A stretch of DNA of 64,000 nucleotides from Pontederia crassipes (taxonomy: Eukaryota; Streptophyta; Magnoliopsida; Commelinales; Pontederiaceae), in the NCBI GenBank assembly GCA_030549335.1, contig CM060194.1, positions 65,314,547 through 65,378,546 on the forward strand. The letters run 5' to 3'. The notes under the pieces were generated by a model. That model ran no database searches. It was not told the DNA's origin and saw nothing but the letters and a program-made list of their open reading frames with translations. This document shows, one piece after another, positions 9,659-14,929 of this stretch; position 1 is the first letter of the stretch, and every line of letters begins with the position of its first letter. The translations under genes and the position numbers were made by a program.

Positions 9659-12600
9659 AAAGCTAGATTTCTATTTATTATATAGATCAATTTTTCCTGA
9701 TAATGATTTACATGCCATTATTTTCTATGCATATAAACACATCTGGGCTGCTTTATGAATTGTTAATCTCATGTATCATAGTTTATAAATACACCACATC
9801 TTATGTTTTATTTGATTTTCGTATTGTCATTTTATTGATTTGCAAAAGGAGTTCTGTTGTGCGTTCTGTTAGTTTCATCTTTTGAGCTTCCAATTTTTTT
9901 TAGAGGTTGAGCTTCCGCATTTCTATTCAATCCACGTGTTGAGTTTACTCATAGAAATCACAGATCTCTTCTTGATTGGGCAGTGCTGTTTATTTTGTTT
10001 TATTTGAGGCATTGATATAAATATAACATGTGATTGATTCAATATCACCATTATTCTTGATACTCTCCTAAAAAAAAGGACATTTACTAACTCTAACAAC
10101 AAGATTTTGATGGCAAGTATCTTGGTGTTGCTCCAATTTCAGCATTATTTGTATTTGCAATTAACTGTATTTCTTGAAACAAGAAGTTCCTGATTCATGC
10201 CACAATATGCTTTTTTAACATGTTTTTTTAGCATTTCACCCAAGTTATATTTGTAGAGGGATATTTTCCACCTAAGCTATTGTATGAAAATATGCAGCCT
10301 TGGAATAGCCCTGTGACAATTTGTGGAGACATTCATGGTCAATTTCACAACCTTGCAGAGCTATTTCGAATAGGGGGAAGGTAATATTTCTTAATATACT
10401 TGCAATTCATGTCTTGAATGGTATTATAACTTTTCTAGATCTTTTGACATTTTATTCAGTCTCCTGTTTTTTGACTGCTTCCCTTGTATGCAGTGTTCAG
10501 ATACAAATTATTTATTCATGGGTGATTATGTGGACCGTGGATACTATTCTGTTGAGACTGTCACTGTAAGAAACATGTCGTATCTGTGATTTAACATAAT
10601 ATCAGTCTACATCATACACTGCTATCTCTGCTGTTTGTTTCGTGACGTGTTCGTATCATATTTTTCAGACTCGGTGTTTTTATAAAGCTAGATTTCTATT
10701 TATTATAAAGATCAATTTTTCCTGATAATGATTTACATGCCATTATTTTCTATGCATATAAACACATCTGGGCTGCTTTATGAATTGTTAATCTCATGTG
10801 TCATAGTTTATAAATACACCACATCTTATGTTTTATTTGATTTTCGTATTGTCATTTTATTGATTTGCAAAAGGAGTTCTGTTGTGCATTCTGTTAGTTT
10901 CATCTTTTGAGCTTCCAATTTTTTTTAGAGGTTGAGCTTCCGCATTTCTATACAATCCACGTGTTGAGTTTACTCATAGAAATCACAGATCTCTTCTTGA
11001 TTGGGCAGTGCTGTTTATTTTGTTTTATTTGAGGCATTGATATAAATATAACATGTGATTGATTCAATACCACCATTATTCTTGATACTCTCCTAAAAAA
11101 AAGGACATTTACTTACTCTAACAACAAGATTTTGATGGCAAGTATTTTGGTGTTGCTCCAATTTCAGCATTATTTGTATTTGCAATTAACTGTATTTCTT
11201 GAAACAAGAAGTTCCTGATTCATGCCACAATATGCTTTTTTAACATGTTTTTTTAGCATTTCACCCAAGTTATATTTGTAGAGGGATATTTTCCACCTAA
11301 GCTATTGTATGAAAATATGCAGCCTTGGAATAGCCCTGTGACAATTTGTGGAGACATTCATGGTCAATTTCACGACCTTGCAGAGCTATTTCGAATAGGG
11401 GGAAAGGTAATATTTCTTAATATACTTGCAATTCATGTCTTGAATGGTATTATAACTTTTCTAGATCTTTTGACATTTTATTCAGTCTCCTGTTTTTTGA
11501 CTGCTTCCCTTGTATGCAGTGTCCAGATACAAATTATTTATTCATGGGTGATTATGTGGACCGTGGATACTATTCTGTTGAGACTGTCACTGTAAGAAAC
11601 ATGTCGTATCTGTGATTTAACATAATATCAGTCTACATCATACACTGCTATCTCTGCTGTTTGTTTCGTGACGTGTTCGTATCATATCTTTCAGACTCGG
11701 TGTTTTTATAAAGATAGATTTCTATTTATTATAAAGATCAATTTTTCCTGATAAAGGAGGAGGGTTGTGTTAGGCCTCGACAGCCAGCTTAAAACCCTGT
11801 CGAATCTCATGAGCATGGATCAACGATGGCGTCGTATGATCCATGTAGCCGACCCCACCTAGTGGGATAAGGCTTTGTTGTTGTTTGTTGTAATGATTTA
11901 CATGCCATTATTTTCTATGCATATAACACATCTGGGCTGCTTTATGAATTGTTAATCTCATGTGTCATAGTTTATAAATACACCACATCTTATGTTTTAT
12001 TTGATTTTCGTATTGTCATTTTATTGATTTGCAAAAGGAGTTCTGTTGTGCGTTCTGTTAGTTTCATCTTTTGAGCTTCCAATTTTTTTTAGAGGTTGAG
12101 CTTCCGCATTTCTATTCAATCCACGTGTTGAGTTTACTCATAGAAATCACAGATCTCTTCTTGATTGGGCAGTGCTGTTTATTTTGTTTTATTTGAGGCA
12201 TTGATATAAATATAACATGTGATTGATTCAATATCACCATTATTCTTGATACTCTCCTAAAAAAAAGGACATTTACTAACTCTAACAACAAGATTTTGAT
12301 GGCAAGTATCTTGGTGTTGCTCCAATTTCAGCATTATTTGTATTTGCAATTAACTGTATTTCTTGAAACAAGAAGTTCCTGATTCATGCCACAATATGCT
12401 TTTTTAACATGTTTTTTTAGCATTTCACCCAAGTTATATTTGTAGAGGGATATTTTCCACCTAAGCTATTGTATGAAAATATGCAGCCTTGGAATAGCCC
12501 TGTGACAATTTGTGGAGACATTCATGGTCAATTTCACGACCTTGCAGAGCTATTTTGAATAGGGGGAAAGGTAATATTTCTTAATATACTTGCAATTCAT

Positions 12601-14929
12601 GTCTTGAATGGTATTATAACTTTTCTAGATCTTTTGACATTTTATTCAGTCTCCTGTTTTTTGACTGCTTCCCTTGTATGCAGTGTCCAGATACAAATTA
12701 TTTATTCATGGGTGATTATGTGGACCGTGGATACTATTCTGTTGAGACTGTCACTGTAAGAAACATGCCGTATCTGTGATTTAACATAATATCAGTCTAC
12801 ATCATACACTGCTATCTCTGCTGTTTGTTTCGTGACATGTTCGTATCATATCTTTCAGACTCGGTGTTTTTATAAAGCTAGATTTCTATTTATTATAAAG
12901 ATCAATTTTTCCTGATAATGATTTACATGCCATTATTTTCTATGCATATAAACACATCTGGGCTGCTTTATGAATTGTTAATCTCATGTGTCATAGTTTA
13001 TAAATACACCACATCTTATGTTTTATTTGATTTTCGTATTGTCATTTTATTGATTTGCAAAAGGAGTTCTGTTGTGCGTTCTGTTAGTTTCATCTTTTGA
13101 GCTTCCAATTTTTTTTAGAGGTTGAGCTTCCGCATTTCTATTCAATCCACGTGTTGAGTTTACTCATAGAAATCACAGATCTCTTCTTGATTGGGCAGTG
13201 CTGTTTATTTTGTTTTATTTGAGGCATTGATATAAATATAACATGTGATTGATTCAATATCATCATTATTCTTGATACTCTCCTAAAAAAAAGGACATTT
13301 ACTTACTCTAACAACAAGATTTTGATGGCAAGTATCTTGGTGTTGCTCCAATTTCAGCATTATTTGTATTTGCAATTAACTGTATTTCTTGAAACAAGAA
13401 GTTCCTGATTCATGCCACAATATGCTTTTTTAACATGTTTTTTTAGCATTTCACCCAAGTTATATTTGTAGAGGGATATTTTCCACCTAAGCTATTGTAT
13501 GAAAATATGCAGCCTTGGAATAGCCCTGTGACAATTTGTGGAGACATTCATGGTCAATTTCACGACCTTGCAGAGCTATTTTGAATAGGGGGAAAGGTAA
13601 TATTTCTTAATATACTTGCAATTCATGTCTTGAATGGTATTATAACTTTTCTAGATCTTTTGACATTTTATTCAGTCTCCTGTTTTTTGACTGCTTCCCT
13701 TGTATGCAGTGTCCAAATACAAATTATTTATTCATGGGTGATTATGTGGACCGTGGATACTATTCTGTTGAGACTGTCACTGTAAGAAACATGCCGTATC
13801 TGTGATTTAACATAATATCAGTCTACATCATACACTGCTATCTCTGCTGTTTGTTTCGTGACATGTTCGTATCATATCTTTCAGACTCGGTGTTTTTATA
13901 AAGCTAGATTTCTATTTATTATAAAGATCAATTTTTCCTGATAATGATTTACATGCCATTATTTTCTATGCATATAAACACATCTGGGCTGCTTTATGAA
14001 TTGTTAATCTCATGTGTCATAGTTTATAAATACACCACATCTTATGTTTTATTTGATTTTCGTATTGTCATTTTATTGATTTGCAAAAGGAGTTCTGTTG
14101 TGCGTTCTGTTAGTTTCATCTTTTGAGCTTCCAATTTTTTTTAGAGGTTGAGCTTCCGCATTTCTATTCAATCCACGTGTTGAGTTTACTCATAGAAATC
14201 ACAGATCTCTTCTTGATTGGGCAGTGCTGTTTATTTTGTTTTATTTGAGGCATTGATATAAATATAACATGTGATTGATTCAATATCACCATTATTCTTG
14301 ATACTCTCCTAAAAAAAAGGACATTTACTTACTCTAACAACAAGATTTTGATGGCAAGTATTTTGGTGTTGCTCCAATTTCAGCATTATTTGTATTTGCA
14401 ATTAACTGTATTTCTTGAAACAAGAAGTTCCTGATTCATGCCACAATATGCTTTTTTAACATGTTTTTTTAGCATTTCACCCAAGTTATATTTGTAGAGG
14501 GATATTTTCCACCTAAGCTATTGTATGAAAATATGCAGCCTTGGAAAAGCCCTGTGACAATTTGTGGAGACATTCATGGTCAATTTCACGACCTTGCAGA
14601 GCTATTTCGAATAGGGGGAAAGGTAGTATTTCTTAATATACTTGCAATTCATGTCTTGAATGGTATTATAACTTTTCTAGATCTTTTGACATTTTATTTA
14701 GTCTCCTGTTTTTTTACTGCTTCCCTTGTATGCAGTGTCCAGATACAAATTATTTATTCATGGGTGATTATGTGGACCGTGGATACTATTCTGTTGAGAC
14801 TGTCACTGTAAGAAACATGTCGTATCTGTGATTTAACATAATATCAGTCTACATCATACACTGCTATCTCTGCTGTTTGTTTCGTGACATGTTCGTATCA
14901 TATCTTTCAGACTCGGTGTTTTTTTTATA
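9659..14929 (+). repeat. Five tandem copies of a ~1,025-bp unit carrying two PP2A exons
   Basis: Units start at AAAGCTAGATTTC or its variant: 9659, 10684, 11710, 12874 and 13900; the last ends near 14929. Spacing is 1025, 1026, 1164 and 1026 bp. The long third unit is explained by a 136-bp SINE at 11755-11890. Each unit holds exon A and exon B of a PP2A catalytic subunit, with the same introns and splice signals. Exon A lies at 10257-10380, 11282-11406, 12446-12570, 13472-13596 and 14498-14622. Exon B lies at 10494-10565, 11520-11591, 12684-12755, 13710-13781 and 14736-14807. Units differ at only a few positions per hundred, so the amplification is fairly recent. Units 3 and 4 share a stop in exon A, and unit 1 has a 1-bp loss at the end of exon A. 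Confidence 0.95.
11755..11890 (+). mobile_element. Au-like SINE, near full length, inside repeat unit 3
   Basis: The insert begins AGGAGGAGGGTTGTGTTAGG and ends in CCACCTAGTGGGATAAGG followed by TTTGTTG-type repeats, as in the plant Au SINE family (Pol III-derived head, TTG tail). The other four units read straight through the site, so its edges are exact. Only a 3-bp repeat (TAA) flanks it. Confidence 0.8.

Follow-up and report, generated by a model that had tools for sequence, protein, structure and literature searches.

Do five near-identical copies of an exon pair, carrying two metal-binding motifs of the PP2A catalytic subunit, belong to a phosphatase gene with repeatable exons, or to a gene copy that no longer works? 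The question is raised by a 64,000-nucleotide stretch of the Pontederia crassipes genome (C12:65314547-65378546, here called the window), in which a segment of about 1 kb is repeated five times. Judged from its sequence, the host of this array is a damaged PP2A gene copy with parts missing, and not a working gene. The locus is of an ordinary kind, an unprocessed pseudogene fragment with an internal tandem duplication, in an unusually clear setting; it is new in detail and not in kind. A literature search gave no account of this array or of any PP2A exon array among the matches listed, which leaves such absence unproven.

Anatomy of the five-unit array

The segment lies in five direct copies, head to tail and in register, at the following positions of the window, the fifth copy ending at about 14921-14929:

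9659 to 10683, plus strand: unit 1, 1025 bp; exon A 10298-10380 (83 nt), exon B 10494-10565
10684 to 11709, plus strand: unit 2, 1026 bp; exon A 11323-11406 open, exon B 11520-11591
11710 to 12873, plus strand: unit 3, 1164 bp; exon A 12487-12570 with TGA, exon B 12684-12755
11755 to 11893, plus strand: insert resembling a short interspersed nuclear element (SINE), 139 bp, with a TTG-rich tail, in unit 3 alone among the units
12874 to 13899, plus strand: unit 4, 1026 bp; exon A 13513-13596 with TGA, exon B 13710-13781
13900 to 14921, plus strand: unit 5; exon A 14539-14622 open, exon B 14736-14807; right edge placed to within about 8 bp

Each unit runs from the end of an intron through exon A (84 nt, 83 nt in unit 1), which encodes GDIHG, a 113-nt intron and exon B (72 nt), which encodes GDYVDRG, into the beginning of the following intron. 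Every exon border in all five units keeps its AG or GT splice dinucleotide. Over 971 compared columns (33 columns around the unit 3 insert were excluded), the ten pairwise comparisons between units show 3 to 10 differences, a similarity far above chance for copies of 1 kb. Both the near-identical fivefold repetition of a segment of about 1,025 bp and the preservation of splice sites in every unit, as given in a preliminary description of the locus, are thereby borne out. Units 1, 2, 4 and 5 each carry substitutions found in no other unit, and the unit 3 insert lacks some 5' sequence that copies of the element at other loci have.

Exons A and B together measure 156 nt and are frame-neutral (155 nt in unit 1). 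Across the units they vary at five sites plus one deletion: exon A reads TGA in units 3 and 4 where the remaining units read CGA, and exon A of unit 1 has lost one nucleotide. All five exon substitutions among the units are non-synonymous or nonsense. The preliminary description had the exons encoding the same peptide apart from a few changes; the differences are indeed few, but they include nonsense in two units and a frameshifting loss in another. Its view that these are not diversified alternative exons holds. Mutually exclusive exon arrays, such as that of Dscam, arise by tandem exon duplication and share with this locus the head-to-tail exons and intact splice sites, whereas the units here are barely diversified, exon A is closed by TGA in two of five, one unit is frameshifted and the host is broken.

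The host fragment and its relatives

The array lies within a longer stretch of PP2A sequence, directly downstream of a pentatricopeptide-type (PPR) gene:

6722 to 9112, plus strand: PPR gene, 796-codon open frame
9476 to 20268, plus strand: unprocessed PP2A catalytic-subunit gene fragment, contains the array; homologous to C12:64695542-64702094
15819 to 15890, plus strand: exon C (parent exon 5), single copy, TGA at 15840-15842
16147 to 16187, plus strand: parent exon 6, single copy
17358 to 17424, plus strand: parent exon 7, single copy
19966 to 20157, plus strand: parent exon 8, single copy, with CLHGG motif and Pfam Metallophos match
20229 to 20264, plus strand: first 36 of 90 nt of parent exon 9, where homology stops; TAG at 20274-20276

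The fragment (10.8 kb) is collinear with the parent from intron 2 into exon 9, and blastn of window positions 1-25000 against the parent region gave main pieces 93-97% identical. Because the match includes the parental introns, the fragment was copied as DNA and is not a processed copy. By parent exon numbering it contains exons 3-8 and 36 of the 90 nt of exon 9, while exons 1-2, exons 10-11 and the other 54 nt of exon 9 are missing. With human PP2A-Calpha (sequence verified against the PDB) as tblastn query at E<=10, the plus strand returned exons A and B five times, then four more exons once each and a piece of a fifth; residues 1-43 and 235-309 had no match within 9476-20268 and a few weak, chance-like matches elsewhere in the window. 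The unmatched C-terminal part includes RAH (residues 239-241 of the query), which we take to be a metal-ligand motif of the PP2A catalytic subunit. A functional PP2A would have all its metal-ligand motifs, RAH among them, and a continuous open frame, and the fragment has neither the full set nor the frame. Because the TGA at 15840-15842 lies in single-copy exon C, no number of units yields a working phosphatase. The preliminary description had set the amplification inside a conserved phosphatase gene, and it is this part that the truncated host and its stop codon overturn.

An intact parent lies at C12:64.69-64.70 Mb, on the same contig and 0.63 Mb from the window, with 11 exons and a coding sequence of 314 amino acids whose product matches Pfam Metallophos; its counterpart on C11, near 26.20 Mb, has 11 exons and 314 amino acids, with one residue different. 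In the 1.13-Gb assembly of 43 contigs covered by our genome searches, PP2A matches are paired on C11/C12, C7/C8 and C9/C10, a pattern suggestive of a polyploid. The 1,026-bp unit, used as a query for which match counts are lower bounds, is complete in at least eight places: five in the window, one at C12:64.70 Mb, one at C11:26.20 Mb and one, split by inserts, at C11:25.63 Mb; the remaining matches listed are partial. The parent, its C11 counterpart and a C11 pseudogene at 25.63 Mb thus hold one unit each. The pseudogene is the counterpart of the window, with the same PPR region and the same junction into PP2A sequence; it is also incomplete (exons 3-7 alone were found within the 29.8 kb examined) and its exon C acceptor is AA. 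Because the order and orientation of both locus pairs agree, we infer that C11 and C12 are homoeologous.

The coding changes differ between the intact and the broken copies. Over the full coding sequence of 945 nt, the parent and its intact C11 counterpart are separated by 7 synonymous changes and 1 non-synonymous change, whereas the window copy (564 nt, with unit 5) differs from the parent by 1 synonymous and 7 non-synonymous changes, one of the latter being nonsense and two falling within one codon. These numbers, though small, point to decay of the window copy without coding constraint. The C11 pseudogene, with 2 synonymous changes and 1 non-synonymous change in 336 nt, has too few for any verdict. 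Introns collinear with the parent, truncation at both ends, nonsense and frameshift lesions, relaxed constraint on small numbers and an intact parent elsewhere are what an unprocessed plant PP2A pseudogene would show; the difference is that an internal exon pair was here amplified fivefold after copying. Most likely, we infer, the array is functionless.

The intact C11 gene has a tandem array of its own, fourfold and made of the promoter region and exon 1 (C11:26205519-26210404; loci L012 and L025; P11x 9397-14282). Its copies are spaced by 1263, 1264 and 1084 bp and are 96.8-98.9% alike; the three upstream exon-1 copies end 10 nt short of the full exon and have no donor, and the ATG of each opens a 43-codon frame.

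Half-spliced retrocopies and a TTG-tailed element

At four dispersed loci, on C1, C7, C10 and C14, exon B directly follows the terminal 8 to 17 bases of exon A, as in a spliced A-B product, and a genome pattern search for the A-B junction gave just these four places (three exact, one with 2 mismatches). Every copy has its 5' end no more than 17 bases before the end of exon A. Intron B-C is retained, only in part in the C10 copy; the C1, C7 and C14 copies extend through exon C into part of intron C-D, and all four terminate in a SINE-like element with a TTG tail. In the coordinates of their loci they are:

L015, about 3132 to 4298: PP2A retrocopy
L016, 3084 to 4707: PP2A retrocopy
L017, about 2924 to 4784: PP2A retrocopy
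L018, 3233 to 1611, reverse: PP2A retrocopy

Over the 939 columns scored in the block downstream of the array, the C10 retrocopy is nearest the intact C12 gene (3/939), and those on C14, C1 and C7 are nearest the C11 pseudogene (3, 4 and 10/939, respectively) or one another, the C14 and C1 copies being parts of one duplicated block that is 99.5% alike over 6.0 kb. With three 5' ends and two closest source loci, this suggests at least three retrocopy events, one of them duplicated later. Since the retrocopies nearest to it carry the spliced A-B junction, the C11 pseudogene, a relative of the window copy, was once transcribed and its A-B intron spliced. Genome pattern searches allowing up to 3 mismatches gave no match to a spliced B-to-C junction, and none to a spliced B-to-A junction, for which the search is a weak test.

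At the corresponding junction the C11 pseudogene has this SINE-like element too, flanked, by eye, by target-site-like repeats; around the four retrocopies no clear target-site duplication was seen. On the simplest view, a TTG-tailed element in an intron would offer the enzyme of a long interspersed nuclear element (LINE) a place to start on a transcript that was only half spliced. The C10 copy calls for a further assumption, either template switching or an insertion since lost, because its closest gene now has no such element there. Transposon capture had been considered as a means of spreading the unit and was dropped: the whole unit occurs at four PP2A loci only, among the matches listed, and the four dispersed short matches are the retrocopies.

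A candidate partner for the element, and its further matches in the window, are:

L014, 956 to 1424, minus strand: LINE-like fragment at the C11 locus, with a C-terminal reading frame and the TTG-tailed 3' end of the SINE-like element
17659 to 17758, window: SINE-like match
18956 to 19022, window: SINE-like match
33204 to 33245, window: SINE-like match
35436 to 35573, window: SINE-like match

The shared 3' end suggests that the LINE-like fragment is the RTE-type partner of the SINE-like element. This assignment draws on the tail and on a motif that we presume to mark RTE-type elements, Pfam giving no family for the fragment (L014 956-1424). Plant RTE-clade LINEs end in TTG repeats as part of a LINE/SINE pair (PMC3747384), and the unit 3 insert and its relatives likewise end in such repeats. 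An Au element was dropped as the identity of the insert, as Au-like SINEs are there described as ending in T tracts, in contrast to the TTG tail here (PMC3747384).

Elsewhere in the window, several frames at 43544-48105 (minus strand) resemble a LINE remnant, one of which (46158-46880) matches Pfam Exo_endo_phos, and a likely two-exon 2OG-Fe(II) oxygenase gene lies at 23060-24279, with PF03171 in its second frame (23581-24276). Positions 2001-6000 are very AT-rich (17-18% GC) and include, at 4233-5465, a degenerate tandem array with a repeat of about 290 bp; at 62426-63316 lie further tandem repeats, which are rich in CCGTCGG/CCGACGG and have longest periods of 80 and 196 bp. Rfam and ARAGORN (bacterial code) gave no matches in the window.

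Origin of the array and its alternative readings

How did one unit become five? Unit 5 is nearest to the parent (21/971, against 25 to 27/971 for units 1-4) and units 3 and 4 form a close pair (3/971). An unrooted tree places unit 5 with the single-unit loci (87%) and unit 3 with unit 4 (88%), the placement of unit 2 reaching 50%. Overall the unit joints read TTTTTATAAAG(C/A)TAG (TTTTTATAAAGCTAG at three of the four, TTTTTATAAAGATAG at the other), with outer edges ACAAAGCTAG and TTTATAATGG; by side, the right edge of the array is TTTATAATGG and the left TTACAAAGCTAG.

We consider it highly probable that the locus arose by segmental duplication, decay, a tandem duplication of about 1 kb and subsequent unequal crossing-over. 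Part of the PP2A gene, from intron 2 into exon 9, would have been duplicated as DNA and inserted just downstream of the PPR gene, 0.63 Mb away; having come without promoter, start or C-terminus, it would have decayed into a pseudogene. A stretch of about 1 kb, from intron 2 to intron 4, would then have been duplicated in tandem in the lineage of this chromosome, the first joint forming at a microhomology of about 2 bp, as the joint and outer-edge sequences indicate. Unequal crossing-over between near-identical 1-kb units would have raised the count to five, with unit 5 the oldest. At a grass rate of 6.5e-9 substitutions per site per year, as cited in PMC10284860, rough arithmetic puts the divergence of the units (mean 8/971) at about 0.6 million years and that of the window from the C11 pseudogene (23/971) at about 1.8 million years. 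The array looks real and fairly recent.

Several observations sit uneasily with this history of a silent, decaying copy. In the unit region the intact genes of C11 and C12 differ at 29/971 columns and unit 5 and the C11 pseudogene at 23/971, and in the downstream block the disparity is larger, 31/939 for the intact genes vs 14/939 for the pseudogenes, where simple descent predicts otherwise. Because the distances differ between the two locus pairs, exchange between C11 and C12, or unequal rates, is possible. The retrocopies record past transcription and splicing of the C11 relative, so the window locus may not be silent, and the splice dinucleotides of the array are intact in all five units.

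That last point, together with the frame-neutral length of A+B in all units except the first, is what a functional PP2A gene would have if its transcripts contained zero to five A-B pairs and its proteins repeated metal-binding segments. The absence of exons 1-2 and 10-11, the partial exon 9, the stops of exon C, unit 3 and unit 4, the lost nucleotide of unit 1 and the empty B-to-A search, weak as that test is, make such a gene scarcely credible. The array could instead be an artefact in which the assembly multiplied one or two units, as the count of five comes from one assembly and errors of this type typically arise in near-identical tandem repeats. The private substitutions of units 1, 2, 4 and 5 and the private 139-bp insert of unit 3 argue that it is not mere assembly duplication, and we regard an artefact as very improbable. 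The preliminary description would have yielded to an orthologous locus with one unit together with the signature of an artefact; the C11 locus, with its one unit, fits this in part, but no artefact signature accompanies it, and the private variants and the insert speak for a real array.

The preserved splice sites, and the A-B retrocopies whose nearest source, the C11 pseudogene, implies past transcription and splicing of that relative, would also suit a non-coding transcript in which A-B pairs are spliced in succession and which affects the parental PP2A genes, for instance as a decoy or a source of small RNAs. However, because the copied part starts in intron 2, the window copy has no parental promoter, and the genome holds no match to the B-to-A junction; we think such an RNA very unlikely. 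Only as speculation do we add that the array may be transcribed, perhaps by read-through from the PPR gene, into RNAs with variable numbers of A-B pairs that influence the parental PP2A genes. Were this so, the fourfold promoter and exon-1 array on C11 would mean that the family has been repeatedly remodelled by local amplification in this polyploid.

On this account a tempting misreading, that of a PP2A gene with repeatable catalytic exons, is removed. An unprocessed pseudogene can carry an exon array with intact splice sites, and gene predictors may join such exons into a false phosphatase, a warning for annotation. The half-spliced, SINE-tailed retrocopies are perhaps the more instructive result, and the comparison of four loci, two intact genes and two pseudogenes, lends itself neatly to dating a tandem amplification relative to how far the paired chromosomes have diverged.

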